A DNA stretch of 20,982 bases from Hydrogenophaga sp. GTDB lineage: Bacteria > Pseudomonadota > Gammaproteobacteria > Burkholderiales > Burkholderiaceae. Numbering within the stretch: position 1 is the first letter of the stretch; each line of letters opens with the position of its first letter. The DNA is taken from positions 1 to 20,982 of the forward strand of contig JALOSH010000005.1 of assembly GCA_025458545.1 (NCBI GenBank). The letters are read 5' to 3'. A program made the position numbers and the translations under genes. The notes under the pieces are model-generated. The model was not told where the DNA came from. It ran no database searches and saw nothing but the letters and a program-made list of their open reading frames with translations. Positions 327-17,694 of the stretch are shown here, in pieces.

Positions 327-1070
327 TCAATGCCCCAGGATCTTCGAGAGAAAATCCTTGCTGCGTTCGTTCTGCGGGTTGTTGAAGAACTCCTCGGGTG
401 TGTTCTGCTCCACGATCTGGCCCTGGTCCATGAAGATCACACGATCGGCCACGGCCTTGGCAAAACCCATTTCATGGGTCACGCAGATCATGGTGATGCC
501 CTGGTTGGCGAGTTCGATCATCACGTCCAGCACTTCCTTGATCATCTCCGGGTCCAGGGCTGAAGTAGGCTCGTCGAACAACATGATCTTGGGCGTGAGG
601 CACAGCGCCCGCGCAATCGCCACGCGCTGCTGCTGGCCGCCCGAAAGCTGCAAGGGGTACTTGCCCGCCTGGTTGGCGATCTGCACCCGCTCCAGTTGCG
701 CCATGGCCTTTTCTTCAGCCTCCTTCTTGGGCACCTTGCCCACCCACATGGGTGAGAGCGTGAGGTTCTCCAGCACGGTCAGGTGCGGAAACAAGTTGAA
801 CTGCTGGAACACCATGCCCACTTCCTTGCGGACCTTGTCGATGGCCTTGATGTCGTCGGTCAGCTCCGTGCCATCCACGATGAGGTGGCCCTGCTGGTGT
901 TCCTCCAGGCGGTTGATGCAACGGATCAGCGTGGACTTGCCGGAACCGGATGGTCCGCAGATGACGATGCGCTCGCCCTTGGCCACGTCCAGGTCAATGT
1001 CCTTCAACACGTGGAAGTCGTTGCCGTACCACTTGTTGACCTTGTCAAATCGAATGATGGGTTCAGTCAC
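327..1070 (-). CDS. aapP: Polar amino acid ABC transporter ATP-binding protein AapP
   Basis: ATPase of an AapJQMP-type general L-amino-acid importer; two copies would bind the inner-membrane permeases and power uptake. The 247-aa protein has Walker [10 protein letters not shown] at 39-47, Q-loop near 89, signature LSGGQQQR at 142-149, Walker B IMLFDEP at 162-168 and the switch His199, all intact. The chosen start is GTG at 1070, preceded by AAGGA; the frame stays open upstream to 1325, but that extension reads through the intergenic repeat and does not resemble the family. It lies 172 bp downstream of aapM with a repeat copy between them. Its partner aapM is truncated and aapQ is absent, so its role in this strain is uncertain even though the gene is complete. 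Size matches GltL/AapP (about 240-260 aa). Confidence 0.93.
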
Positions 1071-1140
1071 AGGAATTTCCTTGTTGTTCAATGTGTTCAG
1101 TCGAATGCCAAGAATCTCGCGCAGAAAGGAGTGTCTCCAT

Positions 1141-1200
1141 CCAGGGGCACCGTGGAACCGGCTCCGCCGGGCCACAGGGTGCCGCCCCCTTGAGGGGGGA
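1141..1200. repeat. Second copy of the repeat frame, between aapM and aapP
   Basis: The blocks CCAGGGGCACCGTGGAACCG and GGCCACAGGGTG match 201-252. Here the middle is a short CCGG-CTCCG-CCGG hairpin where the left copy carries the TTCGACAAGCTCAGG unit. The right end forms CCCCCT/AGGGGG (1185-1190 with 1193-1198). The element sits in the transcribed gap of the aap operon. Confidence 0.65.
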
Positions 1201-1242
1201 TTCGAGCTACACGCAGTGAGCGAGAAACGGGGGTGGGCATAC

Positions 1243-1962
1243 CTACCTGGCTTTGCTGGCTGAGAGCTGCTTCTCCACCCACAGGCTGTAGCGCGACATG
1301 GCGAAGCAGAAGATGAAGTAGACAACCGTGATGAACAGATAGGCCTCGATCTTGAAGGGGCGCCAGTTCACATCCGAATTGAGCGCCAACGAAAGCGCAC
1401 CGGTGAGCTCGTACATGGACACGATGGTCACCAGCGAGGTGTCCTTGAAGATGGAGATGAAGTTGTTCATCACACTGGGCACCACCATGGCCAGCGCCTG
1501 CGGCAGCACGATCTTGCGCTGCGTCTGCCAGTAGCTCAGACCCAGGGTGTCGGCCGCTTCCAGTTGGCCCTTCGGGATGGCCTGAAGGCCGCCGCGGATG
1601 ATCTCGGCCATGTAGGCGGCAGCGAACAGCGTGATGCCCACGACCACCCGCACCAGCACGTCGATGGTCACCCCCTGGGGCATGAACAGCGGGAACATGA
1701 AAGAGGCCATGAACAGCACCGAGATCAGTGGCACGCCCCGGATGAGTTCGATGTAGACGATGCAGGCCGAGCGGATGGCCGGCAGGTTGCTGCGGCGACC
1801 CAGGGCCACCGCAATCGCCAGCGGAAACGCCAGGAAGATCGACACCGTCGCCAGCAGGACCGTCAGTGGCAGGCCACCCCAGAGGTCGGTGCGCACAGTG
1901 CTCAGACCCAGCACGCCGCCGCCCATGAGGGTAAAAAAGATGGCCATGATGGACGCCCACAT
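1243..1962 (-). CDS. aapM: Amino acid ABC transporter permease AapM, 5'-truncated by the foreign block
   Basis: C-terminal part of the AapM permease: several membrane helices and the complete binding-protein-dependent transport domain, including the EAA-type loop around '[14 protein letters not shown]'. From the first in-frame ATG (1962) 239 codons remain, whereas family members have about 380-390. Family-like sequence continues upstream in frame through 'FWKPWLAL' to about 1989; it then turns abruptly into AT-rich DNA unlike the family and meets an in-frame stop after roughly 15 codons. The ATG at 1962 has no ribosome binding site, so it is probably not a natural start. About 145 N-terminal residues and the whole of aapQ are missing. 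It may be a pseudogene, or a reduced permease if it is expressed at all. Stop is at 1243-1245, 172 bp before aapP. Confidence 0.85.
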
Positions 1963-1991: not shown

Positions 1992-2117
1992 TACACGGAG
2001 AAAGCTGAAGATCAGATCTGGAATGTGCCTAATATGATTCAGAAGAAATATTTGAATATTCGTATTGCATCTTCAAGAGGCTCAGTATTGGACAAAACGC
2101 CACAGACCGAGAAATGA
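1992..2117 (+). pseudogene. Possible 3' remnant of a gene cut at the left edge of the block
   Basis: An open frame with no start enters from the junction and runs 41 codons to TGA at 2115-2117. It is lysine- and isoleucine-rich, with composition like the island genes and unlike the host. It ends about 120 bp before the next gene. It would be the tail of an upstream gene in the island's original operon. No family is recognisable, and an open frame of this length can occur by chance. Confidence 0.3.
2002..2015 (+). repeat. Left copy of an imperfect direct repeat near the block edge
   Basis: AAGCTG-A-AGATCAG here corresponds to AAGCTG-TT-AGATCAG at 6711-6725, differing only in the central one or two bases. 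Both copies lie within about 15-25 bp of the block's edges and point the same way. Confidence 0.4.
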
Positions 2118-2234
2118 AGTCTTCACATCCATTCTTTGTTGGGCTACTATCGCGATCGATTTATCACGATTCGTTGGATGTACCCATCTGAGTTGCATGA
2201 TGAAGTTAGAAATCTTCACGGAGGAAAACGCTAC

Positions 2235-3326
2235 ATGAATACAAAAGAAACGAACAACAGCTCATCCTTGCAAAAATTAATTTTTGCGTTCAGTCTCCTA
2301 ATCCTCGCTCTGATTAGTGGGCTCGTGCTTGGGAACATGTATCTGAACCCTATGGTCTATCGTACGAGCCATATGCAAGAGGTCGCGCAGGCTCTGGCAC
2401 AGGGCAAAAATTACGGTGTATACGATACCAATATTAATTGGCGGGCACTGCGTCGCGAGCAGATCAAACTTATGTCGGAGACGCCCCAAGTCGTTGTATC
2501 CGGCGGCAGCCGCTGGCAAGAGGCCTCATCGATTCACACCCCTGGAAAAACGTTCTTCAATGCATTTGGACACAGCGATTTTAGTGAGGATTTTTTCGCA
2601 ATAGTCCATCTTCTTGAAGAAAACGGGCGAATGCCTGAAACCTTGGTGCTAAGCCTTCGCTATAGCATTTTTGCGCCTATCGCGGATCGTGATGCCACCG
2701 GGTGGAGAGAGTGGGTTCCAGAGTATGAGGCAATGATGGCCAAGCTTGGGTTAGAGCCGCATTCGGCTAGTGAAACGGGGCGAAAGAACCACTGGTTGGC
2801 GCTCTTGTCGATCAAAGATCTAGTGAGCCTTGCAAAACGCCGGCTGAGTAGCCGAGAGCATCCGCATATTTTGAATGAGGAAGATAGTGAGACGTTGGAC
2901 GTTATTCGTTCAGATGGTTCACTTCAGTGGTCTAAAAAAAATGCAAATCTTTTTACACCTGAATATGCAGAAAAAGATTCAATCAAACGACTTGCAAGGT
3001 ACACAGACTACACGCTGAGGATTGACGCTGATATGGTTGATGCAACAGATCGGCTTTTTGCTTACCTAAAAGAGAAAAAGGTCAAGGTTGTTTTGGCGCA
3101 AACGCCTTTTCACCCGACTTTCTACGATGGCATCAAACAGCGGCAATATGGTCAAACGCTTGATGAAATCGAGGAAATAGGTAGAAAGTTTTCTCTGAAG
3201 TATGATTTTCCTATCGTTGGGGGGTTTGATCCCAAAGAGGTCGGTTGTCCAAAAGAAGAATTTATTGATTGGCACCATGGGACGCCGGATTGTTTGGCCA
3301 AGATTTTTTCACAGATAAAATTTTAA
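2235..3326 (+). CDS. Membrane-anchored SGNH/DltD-like protein of the aminoacylation block
   Basis: 363-aa protein with an N-terminal membrane anchor (about residues 14-34) and a large domain expected to face the periplasm. The domain has SGNH/GDSL features: a block-I-like strand-turn VVVSGGSRW with candidate nucleophile Ser92, and a C-terminal D-x-x-H block (Asp345, His348 in FIDWHHG). Block I is GGS rather than GDS, as in divergent families such as DltD and AlgX/AlgJ. Such proteins partner MBOAT acyltransferases and complete transfer of an acyl group to an extracellular acceptor. The start at 2235 has a strong GGAGG ten bases upstream; the frame extends to 2136 but without a comparable site. 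An MBOAT gene follows after 12 bp. Whether it acts as transferase, esterase or adaptor is not decided. Similarity to a specific named family could not be checked. Confidence 0.75.
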   Translation: MNTKETNNSSSLQKLIFAFSLLILALISGLVLGNMYLNPMVYRTSHMQEVAQALAQGKNYGVYDTNINWRALRREQIKLMSETPQVVVSGGSRWQEASSIHTPGKTFFNAFGHSDFSEDFFAIVHLLEENGRMPETLVLSLRYSIFAPIADRDATGWREWVPEYEAMMAKLGLEPHSASETGRKNHWLALLSIKDLVSLAKRRLSSREHPHILNEEDSETLDVIRSDGSLQWSKKNANLFTPEYAEKDSIKRLARYTDYTLRIDADMVDATDRLFAYLKEKKVKVVLAQTPFHPTFYDGIKQRQYGQTLDEIEEIGRKFSLKYDFPIVGGFDPKEVGCPKEEFIDWHHGTPDCLAKIFSQIKF

Positions 3327-3338
3327 CAGGCTGAATAA

Positions 3339-4838
3339 ATGCTTTTTTATTCTTTGGAATTTATACTGCTCTTCCTCCCGTTAGTTGGTCTAGGGTATTA
3401 TATAAGCTATAGGTTATTTAAGGCTGAAGGGGTTATTCTTTTTCTCAGTGCTGCATCACTAGTTTTCTATTCCTTCTGGGGATGGGACTTTTTGGCAATT
3501 CTCATCGTCTCGATAGGTGTAAATTTCTCGTTTTATCGTTCACTTGCTTCTAATTGGACTGGTGCGAATGATCGGCGAGCAACGTGTTTGTTAATTTCAG
3601 CTATCGCGTTTAATCTTGCTTGGCTTGGCTACTTCAAGTATCAAGGATTTTTCTTTGAGAACATTTCGATGTTTTTAGGTAAAGATTATGAGCCACTGCG
3701 CGTATTGTTTCCGGTAGGTATATCTTTCTACACATTTATACAAATCGGATTTTTGATTGATGCCCGGAGCGGAATGATCGAAGGTGCTAAACCTGTATCG
3801 ATTTCACGTTACTTCTTGTTCGGTAGCTTCTTTCCTTATGTCACCGCTGGGCCATTGGTGCTTCAAAACGAGATGCTGCCGCAGATGGATAGTGATTCGT
3901 TGCGACCTAGCGCAAATCGCGCCATTCTGGGGTTTTCGATTTTTTCGATTGGTCTTGCTAAAAAGCTAATTCTCGCTGATGCGCTGTCTGGGCATGCGGA
4001 AGAGATTTTCAAGGCCGCAATGTTTCGGGAGGATATAGGTGCGCTCGCCGCATGGGGAGGCAGCGTCGCCTACACTCTTCAACTCTATTTTGATTTCTCA
4101 GGTTATTCGGATATGGCACTGGGCCTTGGTCTGATGTTTGGTCTGCTATTGCCGTTAAATTTCAACTCACCACTCAAAGCCTCTAACATTATAGATTTTT
4201 GGCGGCGTTGGCATATGACAATGACGCGATTTTTTACGAATTACATCTATTCTCCAGTTGCAATAGCTCTTACCCGGAAAAGCATTGGAAGCGGGTATTC
4301 TCCAGCATTAAAGTTAACGCTTTGCGTTGCATATCCTACGATCCTAACTTTTTTGCTTGCGGGTATCTGGCATGGGGCGGGCTGGAACTTTGTTGTGTTT
4401 GGTTTGATTCATGGCTTTGCGCTTACAGTGAATCATTTTTGGAATTCACTGAGGCCATGGGCTCTTCCTAATGTGGTCGGGTGGTTTCTGACGGTCGGCG
4501 TCTTTGTAGTTTCGTTGGTTTTCTTTCGTTCGGCTAATGTACCGGATGCGCTATACCTTTTAGGTGAAATGCTTTCTTTTGCGTCTGGTAGTAAGCAAAT
4601 TTCTGGCACAGAGTTTGCTTTACTTGGCGGCATGCTGGCGATTGCTCTGCTCGCACCAAATACGTTGGAAATTTTTAGTTCGCAAAAGATTTCCAGCGAT
4701 AGTATTCGGCCTGGCGGGAGTCTCATCTCAGTTAGGTGGTCTCCCTCTATTTCTTGGGCTCTAGGTCTTGCGGTATTGGTGTTTTTATCTGTATCACTAG
4801 GCGTTAATGAGACTCCGTTTATATATTATAAATTTTAG
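3339..4838 (+). CDS. MBOAT family membrane O-acyltransferase (DltB/AlgI-like)
   Basis: 499-aa polytopic inner-membrane protein with many hydrophobic helices, the usual size for DltB/AlgI/PatA-type proteins. Family signatures are present: 'YFDFSGYSDMALGLGLMFG' at about 250-268, the cytoplasmic 'FWRRWHMTMTRFF' at 287-299, and 'AGIWHGAGWNFVVFGLIHG' at 341-359 containing the invariant His345, with His358 nearby. MBOAT proteins of this class take an acyl group from a cytoplasmic donor and pass it across the membrane to a sugar polymer. The neighbouring carrier protein and ligase make an aminoacyl-carrier donor, as in DltB/DltC, more likely than acetyl-CoA. It starts 12 bp after the SGNH gene with a weak ribosome binding site, consistent with translational coupling. 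An alternative role is plain O-acetylation of an exopolysaccharide. Confidence 0.9.
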   Translation: MLFYSLEFILLFLPLVGLGYYISYRLFKAEGVILFLSAASLVFYSFWGWDFLAILIVSIGVNFSFYRSLASNWTGANDRRATCLLISAIAFNLAWLGYFKYQGFFFENISMFLGKDYEPLRVLFPVGISFYTFIQIGFLIDARSGMIEGAKPVSISRYFLFGSFFPYVTAGPLVLQNEMLPQMDSDSLRPSANRAILGFSIFSIGLAKKLILADALSGHAEEIFKAAMFREDIGALAAWGGSVAYTLQLYFDFSGYSDMALGLGLMFGLLLPLNFNSPLKASNIIDFWRRWHMTMTRFFTNYIYSPVAIALTRKSIGSGYSPALKLTLCVAYPTILTFLLAGIWHGAGWNFVVFGLIHGFALTVNHFWNSLRPWALPNVVGWFLTVGVFVVSLVFFRSANVPDALYLLGEMLSFASGSKQISGTEFALLGGMLAIALLAPNTLEIFSSQKISSDSIRPGGSLISVRWSPSISWALGLAVLVFLSVSLGVNETPFIYYKF

Positions 4839-4899
4839 TTTTGATTGATATGCATCCCGGTTCAATGTCAACCTCAAACCTTATAGGGGGGAATTTCAA

Positions 4900-6090
4900 A
4901 TGATAGGACAGCTACAGCTAAATCTAGATATAACGCACGATTTTGCGAGTGAAATTGAGAAAGAGTCGGCATTCGTAAGCCCTTACCTGGCAGAGCTGAC
5001 TGTTGATCCATCGAAGAGGACTGTAAGATTCAAGGCGACAGAGCCCTCAAGGCTGACAGAAGTCGAAAAAAAGGTCTCGACGTTCCTGCATAGTATGCTT
5101 GCTGGTTATCGTGAAGCGGACCCTCGAGTGGTATTTCAAACGGTCCGGAAGCACGCCAAGCCGCTCGAAAAGGACGTCTTCTACAAACTTCAAGAGCTAG
5201 GTTGGCTACATGAGGTAGGGCCTGGGCATGTGAGCCTTGCTGGGCCACCTCTAAAGTTTATTGCCTACTTGGATGCGGCCATACAAAAGATCTACGATGA
5301 GCAGTTTGCCGCTATCGAACGTAGTTTTCCGGCACTACTCCCTGCGCGGACCCTGGCCAAAGCAGGATATTTTGATAGTCATCCAAATAACGTCACAATG
5401 ACGACCCATTTGGTAAATGACTTTGATTTGATAGAAAATTTTCGTCAGAATGAAGGACGTACCGGAGACATGGGCACATTGGCCGCAGGAAGCTTTGCTA
5501 CTCCGCACCTATGTCTTAATCCAGCCGCTTGCTTACCCTGTTACCCGGTTTATTCAAACCAAGACGTGTCAGAGGGATGCGCACTTAGTTGGAGAGGTAG
5601 GGTCTTTCGCTACGAATCTTCAAACGTTCGAGGTCTTGAACGTTTGACTGAGTTCAACGTCCGCGAACTTGTGTTCATTGGAAATTCCGAGTATGTTGCT
5701 AGGGGTCATACACAAGCCATAGCGATTGTAAAAACGCTTTGCGAATTGTTGGAGATTGAGGGAATGCTCGTTACCGCTACGGATCCCTTTTTTGCAACTG
5801 TTTCCGCTACCAAAAAGTTTTGGCAGCAATCAATGGAAGCAAAATATGAGATCCGTCTCCCTTTTGAGCAATCAGCAGAAGGGAAGTTCTCGTATGTCGC
5901 AGCCGGGTCGGTCAATCACCATGGGACTTTTTTCGGATCACGATTCGCCATTAAGTCCGGGGGCGAAGAGTTTGCAAATACTGGGTGTGTGGGACTCGGA
6001 TTGGAGCGTTGGCTTCTTGCCTGCTTCGCCCAACATGGCTCAGTACCGGATCAATGGCCCGATGCCGTGCGAAAAGCGGTATTCGATTAA
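4900..6090 (+). CDS. Amino acid:carrier-protein ligase, class II seryl-tRNA-synthetase-like
   Basis: 396-aa enzyme with a class II aminoacyl-tRNA-synthetase core: motif 2 'FRYESSNVRGLERLTEFNVRE' beginning at Phe236-Arg237, and motif 3 'TGCVGLGLER' at 361-370 with Arg370. Cys211, Glu256 and Cys363 lie where the atypical methanogenic SerRS and its bacterial homologues bind catalytic zinc. There is no tRNA-binding coiled-coil arm. Characterised rhizobial homologues adenylate Gly or Ala and transfer it to the phosphopantetheine arm of a small carrier protein, not to tRNA. Here the carrier gene follows after 15 bp, as expected. About 80 N-terminal residues precede the part matching those enzymes, by my recollection of their size. 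Start ATG at 4900 has AGGGGGGA seven bases upstream. The amino acid used cannot be read from the sequence with confidence. Confidence 0.85.
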   Translation: MIGQLQLNLDITHDFASEIEKESAFVSPYLAELTVDPSKRTVRFKATEPSRLTEVEKKVSTFLHSMLAGYREADPRVVFQTVRKHAKPLEKDVFYKLQELGWLHEVGPGHVSLAGPPLKFIAYLDAAIQKIYDEQFAAIERSFPALLPARTLAKAGYFDSHPNNVTMTTHLVNDFDLIENFRQNEGRTGDMGTLAAGSFATPHLCLNPAACLPCYPVYSNQDVSEGCALSWRGRVFRYESSNVRGLERLTEFNVRELVFIGNSEYVARGHTQAIAIVKTLCELLEIEGMLVTATDPFFATVSATKKFWQQSMEAKYEIRLPFEQSAEGKFSYVAAGSVNHHGTFFGSRFAIKSGGEEFANTGCVGLGLERWLLACFAQHGSVPDQWPDAVRKAVFD

Positions 6091-6105
6091 AATTTAGGAG
6101 TTGTT

Positions 6106-6321
6106 GTGAATATTGAAAAAGTTATTGCAGATTTTTTTAGATTGCCGATTGAAAAAATTACAGACGAGAGCAGTCCAAGAACCATAGGAGACTGGGATAG
6201 TTTGAAACATATTGAACTCGTCATGACAATTGAAAAGGAATTTGGGATTCGGTTTAAGGCAAGTGAAATTCCTATGCTGACCTCTGTCGGGAATATTAAA
6301 AAGAGAATTGAGGCGCGATAG
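6106..6321 (+). CDS. Acyl/aminoacyl carrier protein (phosphopantetheine-binding)
   Basis: 71-aa acidic four-helix carrier protein. The modification site is the DSL motif in 'GDWDSLKHIEL', with Ser32 as predicted attachment point for 4'-phosphopantetheine. Start is GTG at 6106 with TAGGAG five bases upstream; the size matches ACP/DltC proteins (70-85 aa). It lies directly after the SerRS-like ligase, and that pairing is the known genetic signature of amino acid:carrier-protein ligases. Within this operon it is the likely shuttle from the ligase to the MBOAT acyltransferase, equivalent to DltC. The phosphopantetheinyl transferase is not encoded here and would have to be a host enzyme. A fatty-acid or polyketide role is less likely because no such enzymes are nearby. 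Confidence 0.9.
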   Translation: MNIEKVIADFFRLPIEKITDESSPRTIGDWDSLKHIELVMTIEKEFGIRFKASEIPMLTSVGNIKKRIEAR

Positions 6322-6721
6322 GGAGTTTGGCTTGATATCGCGGTGACGCTTAGGCCATGAAGTGTGGATATGGGGGAGACGAATGCGACGTCGATGAGGC
6401 AAATCATGACATCGAGACGGCGAGCAGTGGAATCTAAGGGTGTGCGGGCACTATTCCCTCGTGGGGCCAAGTCTCCCCCGTCCGGGGACCAAGCTGCAAT
6501 ATGTGATTTTGCAGGGATGCACCATTATGCTAACCACTGGATTGCTTTAAGTCGCTCCTAAGGCTAATTTGAATGTACTGCTGCGCGATTGGGTGTAGTC
6601 TTAGAGCCCACCGTCACACTCCCACGAGGGTGCTGAGCACGGGGGGTTTTTGCCCAGGCGATGTCAGAGATTCAACGGCGTCAGGAAATCCGGACAAGCG
6701 TTGTCATCCCAAGCTGTTAGA
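6322..6721. other. 400-bp region between the carrier-protein gene and aapJ
   Basis: No convincing gene. GC content is intermediate between the island and the host, so the composition boundary is less sharp than on the left. It contains small open frames without ribosome binding sites, a CCCC/GGGG short inverted repeat near 6476-6487, and a G6-T5 run at 6641-6650. The last 60 bases hold a short open frame described separately. No terminator with a solid stem and T-run was found after the carrier gene. Confidence 0.5.
6661..6720 (+). pseudogene. Possible 5' remnant of a family 2 glycosyltransferase cut at the right edge
   Basis: An ATG at 6661 opens 19 codons ending in 'TSVVIPSC', after which TAG occurs exactly at the join with aapJ. 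'SVVIPS(C/Y)N' is the usual first strand of GT2 glycosyltransferases and typically lies near the N-terminus, as here. If real, the island continued into a polysaccharide gene and was cut in its first 60 bases. Support is only a short motif, and the ribosome binding site is poor. Confidence 0.25.
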
Positions 6722-6725
6722 TCAG
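6711..6725 (+). repeat. Right copy of the imperfect direct repeat
   Basis: AAGCTG-TT-AGATCAG matches 2002-2015 apart from the centre. Its right half overlaps the aapJ stop codon (6722-6724), so the last bases belong to the host operon. Confidence 0.4.
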
Positions 6726-7744
6726 CGAACGGGCATCGGGTACATCAGGCCACCCTTGTTCCACAGCGCGTTCACGCCGCGCGGCAGGCCGATGGGGGTG
6801 ATGTTGCGCTCGTAGGACTCACCGTAGTTGCCCACGGCCTTGATGGCGCGCACAGCCCATTCCTTGTCCAGGCCCAACAGCTTGCCGGTGTCTTCGTTGC
6901 CACCGCCCAGCAGGCGCAGCACATTGGGGTTCTTGCTGTCCTTGCGCATCTGGTCCACGTTGGCTGCGGTGATACCCAGTTCTTCGGCTTCCAGCAGGGC
7001 GTAGCCCACCCACTTCACGATCGCGAAGAACTCGTCATCACCACGGCGCACGGACGGGCCCAGCGGTTCTTTGGAGATGAGTTCTGGCAGGATCATGTGA
7101 TCGTCCGGCTTGGCGGCTTCCTTGGAGCGGATCGAAGCCAGGCCCGATGCGTCCGTGGTGTAGGCCTGGCAGCGGCCAGCGAAGTAGGCTGCGTTGGTGG
7201 CTGCCAGTTCGGCGAACACCACGGGGCGCAGGTTCAGGTTGTTGGCGCGGGAGTAGTCGCTCAGGTTGAGCTCGGTGGTGGTGCCGGATTGCACGCACAC
7301 CGTGGCGCCCTTGAGGTCCTTGGCGCTCTTGACGTTCAGGCTCTTGGGCACCATGAAGCCCTGGCCGTCAAAGAAGTTCACGCCGGTGAAGTGCAGGCCC
7401 AGCGTGGCGTCGCGGGTCAGCGTCCAGGTGGTGTTGCGAGGCAGCAGGTCCACTTCGCCAGACTGGAGTGCAGTGAAGCGCTGGGCGGCGTTCAGGGGGA
7501 CGTAACGCACCTTCTCGGCAACGCCCAACACGGCAGAGGCGACCGAACGGCACACATCCACATCAAGCCCGCTCCATTTGCCCTGGCTGTCGGCGGCAGA
7601 GAAGCCCGCCAGACCGGTACTGACACCACATACCAAGGTGCCGCGCGACTTGATCGCGTCCAGATCCTTGCCAGCATGGGCAGGCATGCTCACCAGGGTG
7701 GCGGCTGCACCCACGCCCAAGGCGGCCAGTTTCAGGGATTTCAA
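6722..7744 (-). CDS. aapJ: General L-amino acid ABC transporter substrate-binding protein AapJ
   Basis: 340-aa periplasmic binding protein of family 3 (SBP_bac_3). A signal peptide covers about residues 1-24, with a predicted cleavage after 'SMPAHA'. The mature part begins 'GKDLDAIKSRGTLVCGVSTGLAGFS', typical of AapJ/BztA, and length matches (about 340 aa). It captures polar L-amino acids for the AapQMP complex. The start is TTG at 7744, with GGAGAGA about ten bases upstream, because no ATG lies near the signal peptide; a slightly longer CTG start is possible. The gene is intact to its stop, but immediately downstream, where aapQ should begin, is the AT-rich island. It is transcribed leftward from the inverted-repeat-rich region 7745-8101. 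Without aapQ in this location the transporter can only work if permeases are supplied from elsewhere. Confidence 0.92.
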   Translation of the reverse strand: MKSLKLAALGVGAAATLVSMPAHAGKDLDAIKSRGTLVCGVSTGLAGFSAADSQGKWSGLDVDVCRSVASAVLGVAEKVRYVPLNAAQRFTALQSGEVDLLPRNTTWTLTRDATLGLHFTGVNFFDGQGFMVPKSLNVKSAKDLKGATVCVQSGTTTELNLSDYSRANNLNLRPVVFAELAATNAAYFAGRCQAYTTDASGLASIRSKEAAKPDDHMILPELISKEPLGPSVRRGDDEFFAIVKWVGYALLEAEELGITAANVDQMRKDSKNPNVLRLLGGGNEDTGKLLGLDKEWAVRAIKAVGNYGESYERNITPIGLPRGVNALWNKGGLMYPMPVR

Positions 7745-7980: not shown

Positions 7981-8101
7981 AGGCCCAAGCCACTGGTCTG
8001 CACGCTGAATGGGCGCAGGTCCCATGCGCGACATGCCCTATTTTTGGCAGCATCGAAGCCCACGTATCCTTGCTCCAGACAGTGACAACAGGAGACAACT
8101 C

Positions 8102-9832
8102 ATGACCAGCCCCGCACCCGCAGAGGCCGCTGCTGCCCGCGCGCCCGAGCGTCCCCACCACCGCTTCTGGCCCACCCGGCTGCCGCACCAGTTGACGCCA
8201 CCGGCCACTTCGCTGTGGTTCAACCTCATGGTCAGTGCGCAGCGCTATCCGGACAAGGCGGCGCTGGTGTTCTTTGATCAGGTGCTCACCTACCGCGCGC
8301 TGTTCGACCAGGTCGAACGCATGGCCGCGCACCTGCATGCCCAGGGGGTGCAGGCCGGTGACCGGGTGATCCTGTTGATGCAGAACTGTCCGCAGTGGGT
8401 GGTGGCGCACTTTGCGATCCTGCGCGCGAATGCGGTGGTGGTGCCGGTCAACCCGATGAACCGCGCAGAGGAGCTCAAGCACTACATCACCGACCCGGAC
8501 GCGCGCGTGGCCGTGGCGGCGGCCGACCTGGCGCCGGACCTGCTGCGGGCCAATGCCGAGGTCCCCGAGGGCCAGCGCCTGCGGCATCTGGTGGTGGCGC
8601 ACTACCACGACGCCATGGGCCCGCAAGCCGAGGTGCCTGCCCCTTGGCAGAACTGGCTCATGCAGCGCCACGCCATGCCCGACTTGCCTGGCGGCACGGT
8701 GGCCGACTGGGCTGACGCAATCGCTTGCAAGCAGCCCGCACCGGTGCACGACCGCACGCCCGAACACCTGAGTGTGCTGCCCTACACCAGTGGCACCACG
8801 GGATTGCCCAAGGGCTGCATGCACACCCATGCCAGCGTGATGCACAACGCCGTGGCCGTCAGCCTGTGGAGCAATGGCACGGCCGAGAACGTGGGCTTGC
8901 TGGTGGTGCCCATGTTCCACATCACGGGTATGGTGGCGGGCATGCACAGCGGTGTGTACACGGGCGCCACGCTGGTGCTCATGCCACGCTGGGACCGCGA
9001 ACTGGCCGGGCGCCTGATTTCACAGTGGCGCGTGACCCACTGGGCCAACATCCCCACCATGGTGATCGACCTGCTGGCCAGTCCGAACTTCGCGCAATTC
9101 GATCTCTCCAGCCTCAAGGTCATTGGCGGCGGCGGCGCGGCCATGCCGCAGGCCGTGGCGCAGCGCCTGTTCGAGCAATACGGGTTGCGCTATTCCGAAG
9201 GCTATGGCCTGACGGAGACGGCCGCGCCTTCCCACAACAACCCGCCGGACGCACCCAAGCAGCAGTGCCTGGGCATTCCTTTCATGGGGGCCGATGCGCG
9301 TGTGGTGGATCCCGACACGCTCAAGGAAATGCCGGTGGGCGAAGCCGGCGAGATCATCATTCGAGGCCCCATGGTGTTCGCTGGCTACTGGAAACGGCCC
9401 GACGCCACCGAGGCGGCGTTCGTCACCTTTGAGGGTGAGCGCTATTTCCGCTCTGGCGACCTGGGGCGGGTCGACGAAGATGGCTATTTCTTTATCACCG
9501 ATCGCCTCAAGCGCATGATCAATGCCAGCGGCTTCAAGGTATGGCCAGCCGAGGTGGAAACGCTGATGTTCCGCCACCCGGCGATCGCCGAGGCCTGCGT
9601 GATCGCCACCCGGGACGCCTACCGGGGCGAGAGCGTGAAGGCCGTGGTGGTGCTGCGCCAGGCCGCACGCGGTCACACCAGCGAGCAGGACATCATCGAC
9701 TGGTGCCGCGACAACATGGCGGTCTACAAATGCCCGCGCGAAGTCGCCTTCGTCGAAGCCTTGCCCAAGAGCGGCAGCGGCAAGGTGATGTGGCGCCAGC
9801 TGCAGGAGCAGGAGGATGTGAAGGCCGGTTGA
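8102..9832 (+). CDS. Acyl-CoA synthetase, AMP-forming (medium/long-chain fatty acid:CoA ligase family)
   Basis: 576-aa ANL-superfamily ligase that would activate a carboxylic acid with ATP and join it to CoA in the cytoplasm. Core motifs: A3/P-loop 'YTSGTTGLPKG' at 228-238, A5 'GYGLTET' at 367-373, A7 'SGDLGRVDEDG' at 451-461, hinge 'DRLKRMINASGFKVWPAEVE' at 467-486, and A10 'PKSGSGKVMWR' with catalytic Lys561. The length suits fatty-acyl-CoA ligases. Start ATG at 8102 has AGGAGA seven bases upstream; an upstream ATG at 8009 in the same frame lacks this and would add an unlikely leader. A small membrane protein and an AcuI-type reductase follow on the same strand, suggesting one catabolic operon. 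The chain length of the substrate is not readable from the sequence. Confidence 0.9.
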   Translation: MTSPAPAEAAAARAPERPHHRFWPTRLPHQLTPPATSLWFNLMVSAQRYPDKAALVFFDQVLTYRALFDQVERMAAHLHAQGVQAGDRVILLMQNCPQWVVAHFAILRANAVVVPVNPMNRAEELKHYITDPDARVAVAAADLAPDLLRANAEVPEGQRLRHLVVAHYHDAMGPQAEVPAPWQNWLMQRHAMPDLPGGTVADWADAIACKQPAPVHDRTPEHLSVLPYTSGTTGLPKGCMHTHASVMHNAVAVSLWSNGTAENVGLLVVPMFHITGMVAGMHSGVYTGATLVLMPRWDRELAGRLISQWRVTHWANIPTMVIDLLASPNFAQFDLSSLKVIGGGGAAMPQAVAQRLFEQYGLRYSEGYGLTETAAPSHNNPPDAPKQQCLGIPFMGADARVVDPDTLKEMPVGEAGEIIIRGPMVFAGYWKRPDATEAAFVTFEGERYFRSGDLGRVDEDGYFFITDRLKRMINASGFKVWPAEVETLMFRHPAIAEACVIATRDAYRGESVKAVVVLRQAARGHTSEQDIIDWCRDNMAVYKCPREVAFVEALPKSGSGKVMWRQLQEQEDVKAG

Positions 9833-14442: not shown

Positions 14443-15357
14443 TCAGGAAGGCGCAGTCGTTGGTTGTGTTGGCAGCGCTGCGGCCTTCCAGGCCTCAAAT
14501 CCTCCCCGGAGGTAGCGTGCTTTCAGACCCGCAGCCTGCAAGCGAAGGGCCGTGGCCCGGCTGACTTCATGTCCATGCACGCAATAGACAAGCACCTCGC
14601 GGTTGGCCGAAAGTTCGTTCGCCCATTGGCCAACTGTCGCCGGATCGCGCCAATGGGCGCCCGCGATCATGGCGTCCGATTGATCGAACACGCCGGCACG
14701 GCGCACGTCCACCACCAAGGCATCGCCGATAACGTCTGCCGTGCGGCCTAACGGCTCGCTCACTGCGTGCACGGTCTGCTGGTAACGGGCATGTACCCCC
14801 GCCCAGTCGATGTTCGCCATGAACGCGTCCACGTACGCCCCCGCCGCTGCCCCGAAGTCCAGGTGGTAAGCGTGTTCGTACATGTCCAGCGCGAGGATGG
14901 GCATGCTGCCGGCCAGCACGTGGGTATGGTCGGCCGCCCACTGGTTGACCAGGGTCCCTCCGCCAGGCTGGAACACGAGCAGCATCCAGCCCGAGCCACC
15001 ACCCAGCGCCTTGGCGCAGGCCGTGAACTCCTCGCGCCATCGCTCGACGCTGCCGAAGCTGGCTTCCAGTGCCAGCTGGCAGGCGGGCTCCATGGTCTGC
15101 CCATCGCCGCCGAGGCTGGCGAAGTACAGCTCGTGCAGCCACATCGAATTGGCAGCGATCAGTTCTTCGCGTTTCAGGCCGTTGAGCTCGAAGCCCGGTG
15201 TGCTGCTGAAAGACGTGCCAGCGAGCTGGGCACGGATGGCGTTGAGGCGCTTGACGGCGCCGCCATAGTTGTTCTGGTGGTGACTCTCCAGCAGTCTGAC
15301 GGACAGCCCTGCCAAAGCAGCGGGTTCAAAAGGCAGGGGTTGAATTCGAGCGTTCAT
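14443..15357 (-). CDS. Superoxide dismutase-like / rhodanese fusion of the chromate operon (ChrC-ChrE-like)
   Basis: 304-aa two-domain protein. Residues 1-200 form an Fe/Mn superoxide-dismutase fold: 'SHHQNNYGGAVKRLN' (25-39), His75 in 'MWLHELYF', and Asp158/His162 in 'ALDMYEHAYHLD'. Residues 205-295 form a rhodanese domain with active-site Cys259 in 'YCVHGHEVS' and the final 'RGGFEAW'. In C. metallidurans the chr operon has ChrC (iron SOD) and ChrE (rhodanese signature) as separate genes; here the two functions are in one chain. The position of the first metal ligand (His26 of E. coli SodB) appears to be leucine (Leu22), so classical SOD activity is doubtful. Start ATG at 15357 has AAAGGA about six bases upstream and lies 10 bp after chrA. 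Expected role: handling oxidative or sulfur stress from chromate. Confidence 0.85.
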   Translation of the reverse strand: MNARIQPLPFEPAALAGLSVRLLESHHQNNYGGAVKRLNAIRAQLAGTSFSSTPGFELNGLKREELIAANSMWLHELYFASLGGDGQTMEPACQLALEASFGSVERWREEFTACAKALGGGSGWMLLVFQPGGGTLVNQWAADHTHVLAGSMPILALDMYEHAYHLDFGAAAGAYVDAFMANIDWAGVHARYQQTVHAVSEPLGRTADVIGDALVVDVRRAGVFDQSDAMIAGAHWRDPATVGQWANELSANREVLVYCVHGHEVSRATALRLQAAGLKARYLRGGFEAWKAAALPTQPTTAPS

Positions 15358-15367
15358 GGAGAGTCCT

Positions 15368-16740
<1,373 letters not shown>

Positions 16741-16744
<4 letters not shown>

Positions 16745-17694
16745 GGTGTGCTCCCATTCGCGTTGGACGGGGAGGCATACAGCGCATCAAACACCGCCGC
16801 CGCCGCCGCTGCCAGTGCATCGTCATCGGTGTGCAACTCGCGCAACCCGCCCAACACACTTTCCAGGCCCGCCGCTTCGGGCACGGGAATACCGCCGGCG
16901 TCCAGAAAATGCACCGCACTGGCAATGCGCTGCAGCCGGGCATCGTGGGCCAGGCCGAAGGCGGCGAGCAAGACCTCAAACGTCACCCGCGAGCCCACGT
17001 GCGTGAAGCGCGCGCCGTCGTAGTCGAAGCCCACTGCACCCCGTGGCGCGGGCGAGGTGGCCGGGTCGCTCAACCAGATGAACCGGGCCTGTGGGTCAAT
17101 GAAACGGCGGATCAGCCAGGCACAGGCCAACCGGTCCACCCAGGGTCGTGCGCGGGTGGCCCAGCGTTTGCCCTGGAACTTGCGCATATCGAGGCGTTCG
17201 ATGCCGTGGTCCACCTGGGGCTGGGGTTCGCCTTTGGAGAACCGCGCGTCCAGCGCCTGGCGCAGTGCGTCCAGTTCGGATCGCGCCTGGTCTGCGGCCG
17301 CACCCGGGAAGTAGTCGATGCGCTGCAGCCCGTGCAAGGCCTCTGCCACGGCGCGCCAACGCCTGCGGGCTTCAGTCTCACCCAGCGTGGGCAGTTCAGT
17401 CTGAAGGGCTGTGGCGGTGTCGCGCCACTGCGCATAGGCCTCCTTGCGATCGAACAAGGCCAGCAGTTCGTCACGCTGGGCATCGTCCTTGGGAGACAGG
17501 GACAAGACCATGGCGGTGCCGCCGTGCTCGCGGACTTCTGCAGCGAGCGGCTCAAAAAGCGCTGCATGTTCTGAGGGCAGCAGGTAGGCGCCGTCTCGCA
17601 ATGCGCCGCAGCCCAGGGTCTTGAGAGAGCGCCAGATGCGCACCCTAACAGCATTGGGCTGGGTCGGCAGCGTGAGGATAAGAATGGCCAACAT
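16741..17694 (-). CDS. chrB: Chromate resistance protein ChrB, sensor/regulator
   Basis: 317-aa protein with the ChrB N-terminal domain beginning 'MLAILILTLPTQPNAVRVRIWRSLKTLGCGALRDGAYLLP' (given here only to mark residues 1-40) and the C-terminal ChrB domain with 'WVDRLACAWLIRRFIDPQARFIWL' around 185-210. In Cupriavidus and Ochrobactrum, ChrB is the chromate-responsive regulator of the operon. The start is ATG at 17694, where alignment with the family begins; no ribosome binding site precedes it. A -10-like TATATT lies seven bases upstream of the ATG within a palindrome, suggesting a leaderless transcript. The chrB-chrA-fusion genes are tightly coupled and are best seen as one operon. Confidence 0.92.

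Follow-up and report, generated by a model that had tools for sequence, protein, structure and literature searches.

What would an enzyme built like a seryl-tRNA synthetase (SerRS) do in an operon with the parts of a transmembrane acyltransferase? The question is raised by a 20,982-nucleotide stretch of Hydrogenophaga sp. DNA (GenBank assembly GCA_025458545.1, contig JALOSH010000005.1, positions 1 to 20,982; hereafter the window), in which four genes encode, in order, an SGNH protein, an MBOAT protein, a class II SerRS-like ligase and a carrier protein (Table 1). An initial annotation described four same-strand genes separated by gaps of 12, 61 and 15 bp and named their motifs, and the open reading frames (ORFs) of the window and their translations bear this out, holding WHGAGW in the MBOAT, motif 2 (RVFRYES) and motif 3 (GLGLER) in the ligase and GDWDSL in the carrier. 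A start of the SGNH gene at a TTG at 2136, which would give a longer ORF, is less likely because GGAGG stands before 2235. The operon is, we believe with good confidence, a transmembrane aminoacylation system working like Dlt and PatAB; the basis for this is the gene set, the catalytic residues, the folds and the MBOAT clade, from which we infer every transfer step.

Ligase homologues at E 1e-5 or better number 555, and the 120 listed are mostly 395–405 aa long. A scan of genome contigs with the window ligase as a single sequence gave no match, and a scan with an alignment of 36 sequences (the window ligase and 35 of the 120 listed homologues) gave 39 loci. Most of them lie in alphaproteobacterial assemblies; the rest include one each from Ramlibacter and Chromatiaceae, and Phyllobacterium leguminum ORS 1419. 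Many of these loci are mutually related, and as all were recruited by the ligase, its presence in 39/39 is by design. When the four window proteins were searched against all ORFs, the order SGNH-MBOAT-ligase-carrier was found on one strand in 30 of the 39 loci as well as in the window. A chance arrangement is ruled out by this recurrence of order and strand on separate contigs, and with the invariance of the catalytic residues it establishes the four adjacent genes as a real unit; the earlier proposal of a Dlt-like MBOAT/SGNH pair joined to a SerRS-like ligase and a carrier is in this respect upheld.

The co-occurrence of the two pairs, suggested at the outset as a check, is seen where the upstream region can be assessed. 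In the 35 loci uncut upstream by a contig edge, the SGNH-MBOAT pair is found in 32, a fragment in one (L001, where the MBOAT is a 198-aa piece) and no pair in two (L032 and L034, which have ligase and carrier). The four loci left out of this count (L006, L015, L025 and L039) have their ligase match at most 1.1 kb from a contig edge, and the ligase of L039 is itself a fragment. L033 and L036 retain SGNH and MBOAT genes on contigs that end inside the ligase. The carrier is present in 36 of the 39 loci, the other three being cut or broken. The absence in L032 looks recent or due to faulty assembly, since its near neighbour in the ligase tree (95/60), L031, holds all four genes; L034 is a different setting, with glycosyltransferase, SIS-domain and FkbM methyltransferase genes (named by reading the sequences).

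The MBOAT protein matches PF03062 at E 1.2e-18 (68 bits, cut-off 27), and its two PDB sequence matches at E 0.001 are both DltB (best 4.4e-28). Its identification as DltB itself is ruled out by a score of 151.1 bits against the 375 of the DltB equivalog TIGR04091 and by its place outside DltB in the tree. A feature absent from the initial annotation makes the mechanism specific: the protein ends in a hexapeptide of the FXYXXF type found in DltX and PatA, in which the tyrosine is reported, in a 2025 PatAB paper, to carry the acyl group (PMC12148441). Over 34 sequences (the window, 32 loci and a Nonomuraea relative described below; the same set serves for the SGNH counts), F494, Y496 and Y497 are invariant and F499 is kept in 33, the exception being a Tyr in Nonomuraea, whose C-terminus reads FLYYRY. 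Motif positions 3–4 are YY in 34/34 cassettes and YF in 13 of the 14 paralogues near which no carrier was detected, the remaining one (L052) having YY. The two DltB proteins compared have no fused C-terminal hexapeptide. No separate DltX-like ORF of at least 20 aa occurs at 1963–2234 or 6322–6720 of the window, and the gaps inside the operon are too short for one.

A maximum-likelihood tree of 56 MBOATs was repeated with 55 rows (AMPCP_L109, on a branch of 6.2, omitted), with 50 rows (the two DltB, FKBH_L101, PAR_L056 and PAR_L103 also omitted) and with gonococcal PatA added, 18 of the 33 cassette rows being omitted from the last for speed; the L001 fragment was kept out of the alignment and all trees. 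The 33 cassette MBOATs and that of Nonomuraea group together (100/98 to 100/99). The next fork outwards (100/97 to 100/99) adds the proteins of L101 (S. meliloti), L108 (genome G007) and L075/L124 (G020). Together these make a clade of 37 for which the label 'carrier-neighbouring' requires one change, supported at 100/97 with 55 rows and 100/98 with 50. Thirty-five of its members adjoin a carrier gene; the contigs of L033 and L036 stop short of the carrier position. Gonococcal PatA, the two DltB and the 14 paralogues fall outside, so that the phylogenetic check proposed earlier places the window MBOAT among carrier-associated proteins. Two qualifications belong to the labels. L075 was at first one of 15 paralogues and was relabelled after an FkbH-like gene and a carrier were found beside it, and this label was set with the 56-MBOAT tree already seen; and although a hidden Markov model (HMM) search to E 10 found no carrier in the fetched stretches around the 14 others, this absence is weak because the same HMM missed the annotated DltC in L104 and L105. 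The L007/L009/L020 group, then the window, branch off early in both the MBOAT and the ligase trees.

Three types of loading enzyme accompany this one MBOAT clade: SerRS-like, non-ribosomal peptide synthetase (NRPS) adenylation and FkbH-like. In Nonomuraea gerenzanensis (L098, 6896–12847), close SGNH and MBOAT relatives and a carrier are followed by a condensation-adenylation protein that replaces the SerRS-like ligase, a 1011-aa NRPS protein with condensation and AMP-binding domains (AMP-binding 294.6 bits) whose frame, from 9812, overlaps the carrier gene (9585–9815) by 4 bases. Its MBOAT nests among those of the cassettes. In L101, L108 and L124, the MBOAT has as neighbours a carrier and a HAD-IIIC protein of the FkbH-like kind. 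The one in L108 matches FkbH_N at 37.7 bits and, at 370 bits, the S. meliloti protein of L101, which is annotated HAD-IIIC and gave no Pfam match. These loci are possible glyceryl-carrier-fed transmembrane acylation systems. By eye, L101 and L108 have an SGNH-looking neighbour too.

Other arrangements around MBOAT genes were met in passing. In L106 (G392) and L107 (G007), the SerRS-like ligases are distant ones, at 196 and 202 bits, and stand beside another MBOAT type, ending FIYFRF and lying outside the carrier-neighbouring clade, and beside an SGNH-looking protein of 327 and 315 aa; in L107 a GNAT gene lies in between, and no carrier was found in either. L109 (G016) has a 618-aa AMP-binding enzyme with a C-terminal carrier domain (PP-binding just below cut-off). 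The 383-aa MBOAT next to it lacks the C-terminal hexapeptide, and the enzyme may represent DltA fused to DltC in an assembly of proteobacterial origin.

The SGNH protein is recognised by structure. Against Pfam it gives DUF1574 alone (E 0.0039, below cut-off), a PDB sequence search found no match to E 1, and 9 of 34 family members reach Lipase_GDSL_2 with E values of at most 0.1 (best 1e-4). Its structure model, with a mean pLDDT (predicted local distance difference test) of 95, has the SGNH fold, and its best solved matches are DltD, placed first by two aligners. The protein is thus DltD-like by its modelled fold only, and in that sense the earlier description holds. Model residues 9–37 form an N-terminal helix that we take as a membrane anchor. 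The predicted triad is invariant, also in a second alignment of 34 rows, as are Cys338 and Cys353 (34/34).

The ligase has one Pfam match, tRNA-synt_2b (PF00587, E 9.3e-10, 39.3 bits, cut-off 29.3). It scores below the cut-offs of the amino acid:[carrier protein] ligase model NF005479 (134.6 bits, cut-off 357) and of the type-2 (methanogenic) SerRS equivalogs (127.7 against 611 and 98.7 against 489.55 bits). A housekeeping bacterial SerRS above cut-off is present in all 20 relatives searched, so this is not the SerRS of translation, and a role as the cell's own SerRS is ruled out. Alignment to the SerRS model begins at model position 125 of 518, much of the tRNA-binding N-terminus being gone; about 90 residues remain before the core and align with the last part of the N-terminal region in type-2 SerRS. 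C211 and E239 are present in 39/39 sequences and C363 in all 37 rows with letters there, at the same three positions as in Bll0957, where the aligned residues are zinc ligands. In a midpoint-rooted tree of 64 ligases (L039 omitted), 38 cassette rows and L034 group together (97/95), separate from the Bll0957-type, Streptomyces, gut and other rows. The residues before position 90 of the window ligase number 89–108 in cassette ligases and at most 55 in 15 of 16 Bll0957-type rows (104, in an overlong reading frame, in the other), and position 336 is Gly in all 38 cassette-branch rows with letters, as against Met or Leu in 10 of 16 Bll0957-type rows. Because of this Gly and the kinship to SerRS, our guess for the loaded amino acid would be serine, then alanine, with glycine less likely. 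Among structural matches of the ligase model, type-2 SerRS stands above Bll0957 by about 2 Z, which is not read as proof of serine.

The initial annotation expected the operon to give the orphan SerRS-like ligases their physiological role, and this was not supported: the characterised Bll0957-type enzymes gain no role from it, since they form a separate branch with other neighbours. The role proposed here, feeding a transmembrane acyltransferase, is for the cassette branch. In plasmid loci of Priestia, Mycetohabitans, Azospirillum, Shinella and Caballeronia, Bll0957-type ligases stand beside a carrier and an acyl-CoA dehydrogenase, with DUF1839 in all but Priestia (4/5); these five have no annotated MBOAT in an incomplete gene table. 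Streptomyces ligases of similar length lie between an acyl-CoA dehydrogenase and a protein with an acyltransferase domain; genes for a carrier and a 3-hydroxyacyl-CoA dehydrogenase are there too. This resembles the arrangement, in zwittermicin, of the aminomalonyl-carrier genes, which start from serine. In all, the twelve ligase loci of other context read on plasmids or phage (L040–L051) show no annotated MBOAT, L042 and L051 carrying no annotation and the plasmid gene table being incomplete.

The carrier matches PP-binding (PF00550) at E 1.3e-5 and 25.8 bits (cut-off 20.8), and reaches 13.5 bits against the DltC model (cut-off 68). The next gene after it encodes a 4′-phosphopantetheinyl transferase in L007 (57.7 bits) and, by clustering, in L009.

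From these parts we propose the following scheme. The ligase, in place of DltA, would make an aminoacyl-adenylate, with a zinc ion bound by Cys211, Glu239 and Cys363 holding the amino group, and would move the amino acid onto a phosphopantetheine arm at Ser32 of the carrier. At the cytoplasmic face, the MBOAT would take the aminoacyl group off the carrier, using His345, and place it on its own Tyr496, the C-terminal hexapeptide serving as a fused DltX. Ser92 of the membrane-anchored, DltD-like SGNH protein would then accept the group from Tyr496 and pass it on to a hydroxyl group on an acceptor outside the cytoplasm, presumably an envelope polymer or lipid encoded elsewhere.

The scheme borrows from two known systems and belongs to neither: it resembles Dlt with DltX fused on, and PatAB with a donor predicted to sit on a carrier. 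With Dlt of Gram-positive bacteria (DltA, DltB, DltC, DltD and DltX) the cassette shares a carrier, an MBOAT, a DltD-like SGNH protein and a tyrosine acyl-shuttle motif. It is not a member of Dlt, however: the loader is class II SerRS-like (tRNA-synt_2b match only) and not the ANL enzyme DltA, the MBOAT is far under the DltB equivalog cut-off and elsewhere in the tree, and no separate DltX was found near the operon, its hexapeptide being fused to the MBOAT. The relatives, too, are mostly proteobacterial. The Gram-negative pathway first suggested is not strictly so, since Nonomuraea has the SGNH-MBOAT-carrier set with an NRPS adenylation protein. PatA/PatB and AlgI-type pairs likewise combine an MBOAT ending in FXYXXF with a periplasmic SGNH partner, as the PatAB paper describes them (PMC12148441), and the cassette has the hexapeptide with its invariant Tyr, the MBOAT His and the SGNH Ser-Asp-His. 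PatA uses acetyl-CoA and no carrier, whereas the cassette operon has both carrier and loader, and motif positions 3–4 are YA in gonococcal PatA and YY here; with a carrier present, the cassette is probably not of the acetyl type. Bll0957-type ligases share the class II SerRS-like core and an adjacent carrier and differ in the branch, N-terminus, position 336 and neighbours described above. In AlmEFG of Vibrio cholerae, glycine is transferred to lipid A, AlmE being DltA-like and AlmG not an MBOAT. The proposed cassette resembles it in that a carrier-borne amino acid would end on a Gram-negative envelope molecule. Among the titles and abstract openings listed from an open-access library, none links a SerRS-like ligase to an MBOAT or SGNH protein; what appears new is a Dlt/PatAB-like machine with a different loading enzyme, its chemistry being predicted. 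If it is right, aminoacyl esters join the possible decorations of Gram-negative envelopes.

The MBOAT and SGNH proteins could instead be an ordinary acetyl-CoA-fed O-acetyltransferase whose operon is merely shared by a ligase-carrier pair making something else. L032 and L034 do hold ligase and carrier without the pair, and the MBOAT carries, like the acetyl type, a fused hexapeptide that is missing from the two DltB compared. In the PatAB paper, MBOAT/SGNH pathways other than Dlt are moreover said to work without a carrier, evidently as acyl-CoA users (PMC12148441). Against that statement stands the conserved MBOAT/SGNH clade with its carrier and three kinds of loader, and we consider this alternative improbable. 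More improbable still is that the ligase loads coenzyme A, another free thiol or tRNA, from which the MBOAT draws, with the carrier as an accessory. By its title, structure 3pzc shows Bll0957 with coenzyme A, the distant ligases of L106 and L107 stand beside an MBOAT where no carrier was found, and the 89–108 residues kept before position 90 align with the last stretch of the N-terminal region in type-2 SerRS. Yet the carrier follows the ligase in 35 of 36 carrier loci (preceding it in L034) with an invariant Ser, the phosphopantetheinyl transferase gene adjoins it in L007, and much of the tRNA-binding N-terminus of SerRS has gone.

A further alternative concerns the acceptor only and otherwise overlaps the aminoacylation system we favour: the product may be a small secreted molecule or an outer-face lipid and not an ester on an envelope polymer. 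No polymer-making gene was recognised among the conserved neighbour clusters read, and the Nonomuraea loader, an NRPS protein, includes a condensation domain. The nearest partners, DltD and PatB, nevertheless act on polymers, and PatAB is likewise a stand-alone pair; we regard this alternative as unlikely, though deserving of more weight than the other two. Returning to the carrier-fed system, we offer tentatively, and with more doubt than conviction, a wider reading: that MBOAT/SGNH systems exporting C3 hydroxy- or thio-acyl groups from a carrier make up a separate family outside DltB, in which the loader can be exchanged (SerRS-like for seryl, NRPS, FkbH-like for glyceryl), and that the window operon decorates the exterior of a proteobacterial cell with L-seryl esters. 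The specificity residues of the Nonomuraea NRPS, read by eye against known codes, resemble those for cysteine, and, going by the FkbH family, the FkbH-like loader would supply glyceryl, the hydroxy analogue of serine. If the L-seryl reading is true, a carrier ligase derived from SerRS would have a physiological use, in modifying the envelope.

Table 1. Genes, predicted functional residues and surrounding features in the window; residue counts refer to the alignments described in the text.
Feature	Position	Strand	Remarks
SGNH gene	2235..3326	+	363 aa from ATG at 2235; GGAGG upstream
SGNH catalytic Ser92 (GGSRW)	2508..2510	+	S in 34/34; also invariant in second alignment of 34 rows
SGNH Asp345 and His348 of triad (DWHH)	3267..3278	+	D 34/34, H 34/34; invariant in second alignment
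MBOAT gene	3339..4838	+	499 aa
MBOAT active-site His345 (WHGAGW)	4371..4373	+	H in 34/34
C-terminal acyl-shuttle hexapeptide FIYYKF, MBOAT residues 494-499	4818..4835	+	matches FXYXXF (PMC12148441)
SerRS-like ligase gene (class II)	4900..6090	+	396 aa
Carrier protein gene	6106..6321	+	71 aa; GTG start, AGGAG upstream
Carrier Ser32 (GDWDSL), predicted phosphopantetheine site	6199..6201	+	S in 38/38 carriers; W30 in 38/38
Low-GC, apparently acquired segment holding operon	2000..6600	.	approximate edges; from 1-kb GC windows and broken flanking transporter
Amino acid ABC transporter ATPase	327-1325	-	listed start perhaps too early
Amino acid ABC transporter permease	1243-1962	-	239 residues
Amino acid ABC transporter binding protein	6722-7744	-	

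The operon stands out from its surroundings in composition, with a guanine-cytosine (GC) fraction of 0.42–0.49 in the four 1-kb windows of 2001–6000, 0.53 at 6001–7000 and 0.60–0.70 elsewhere. It is flanked by the parts of an amino acid ATP-binding cassette (ABC) transporter, the order of which in Azospirillum (L134) is binding protein, permease, permease, ATPase. Residue 2 of the window permease aligns 149 residues into the 386-residue Azospirillum permease, so about 149 N-terminal residues are gone, and the first permease was not found in the window. The cassette therefore appears to have replaced part of the transporter operon, and by these signs appears to be a horizontally acquired unit; repeats at the island edges are limited to weak two-copy matches. 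An AMP-binding-type ORF at 8009–9832, on the cassette strand 1.7 kb past the cassette, was considered as a DltA for the operon and rejected: it scores as a long-chain-fatty-acid--CoA ligase (902 bits, cut-off 705), lies in high-GC DNA beyond the low-GC block and is taken as unrelated. An Rfam search of the window gave no match, and a promoter and terminator scan found no more sites than in shuffled sequence.

The system is rare in the genomes surveyed. Of 385 genomes of the class, just two hold the ligase family at over 600 bits, G005 and G007, which were in the collection before; weaker relatives occur in 13 other genomes (111.8–195.4 bits), and G007 has a second, weaker copy (201.4 bits). 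In 398 genomes of the phylum, the sole match to the SGNH protein was the centre itself. With no further member in either survey the conclusion of rarity follows, and these counts are not an unbiased frequency. Viral contigs scanned with the ligase gave no match. A 'Bacteriophage sp.' record (L051) has a distant ligase; its listed ORFs of at least 90 aa, read by eye, showed no MBOAT.

Among the genes around the cassettes, a PAS histidine kinase stands for the commonest neighbour cluster (30 of 40 loci, the window not among them) and a response regulator for the next (20 of 40), one member of each having been tested; two-component systems may regulate the cassette in many hosts. The third commonest is by eye a transporter-like protein (16 loci). 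Elsewhere, L110 (G125) has a SerRS-like ligase and a carrier between LpxD-looking and PseG-looking genes (named by reading), a pair that perhaps aminoacylates a nucleotide sugar, and in a 30-kb plasmid of the honeybee bacterium Apilactobacillus kunkeei (L043, 3085–8048) a SerRS-like ligase adjoins a small hypothetical protein near two annotated D-alanine--D-alanine ligase genes. The chromate resistance genes chrB and chrA, with a superoxide dismutase/rhodanese-looking gene, lie directly upstream of the cassette in L007 (1158–4784) and L009, and the same set is found in the window at 14443–17694, 8 kb from the cassette.

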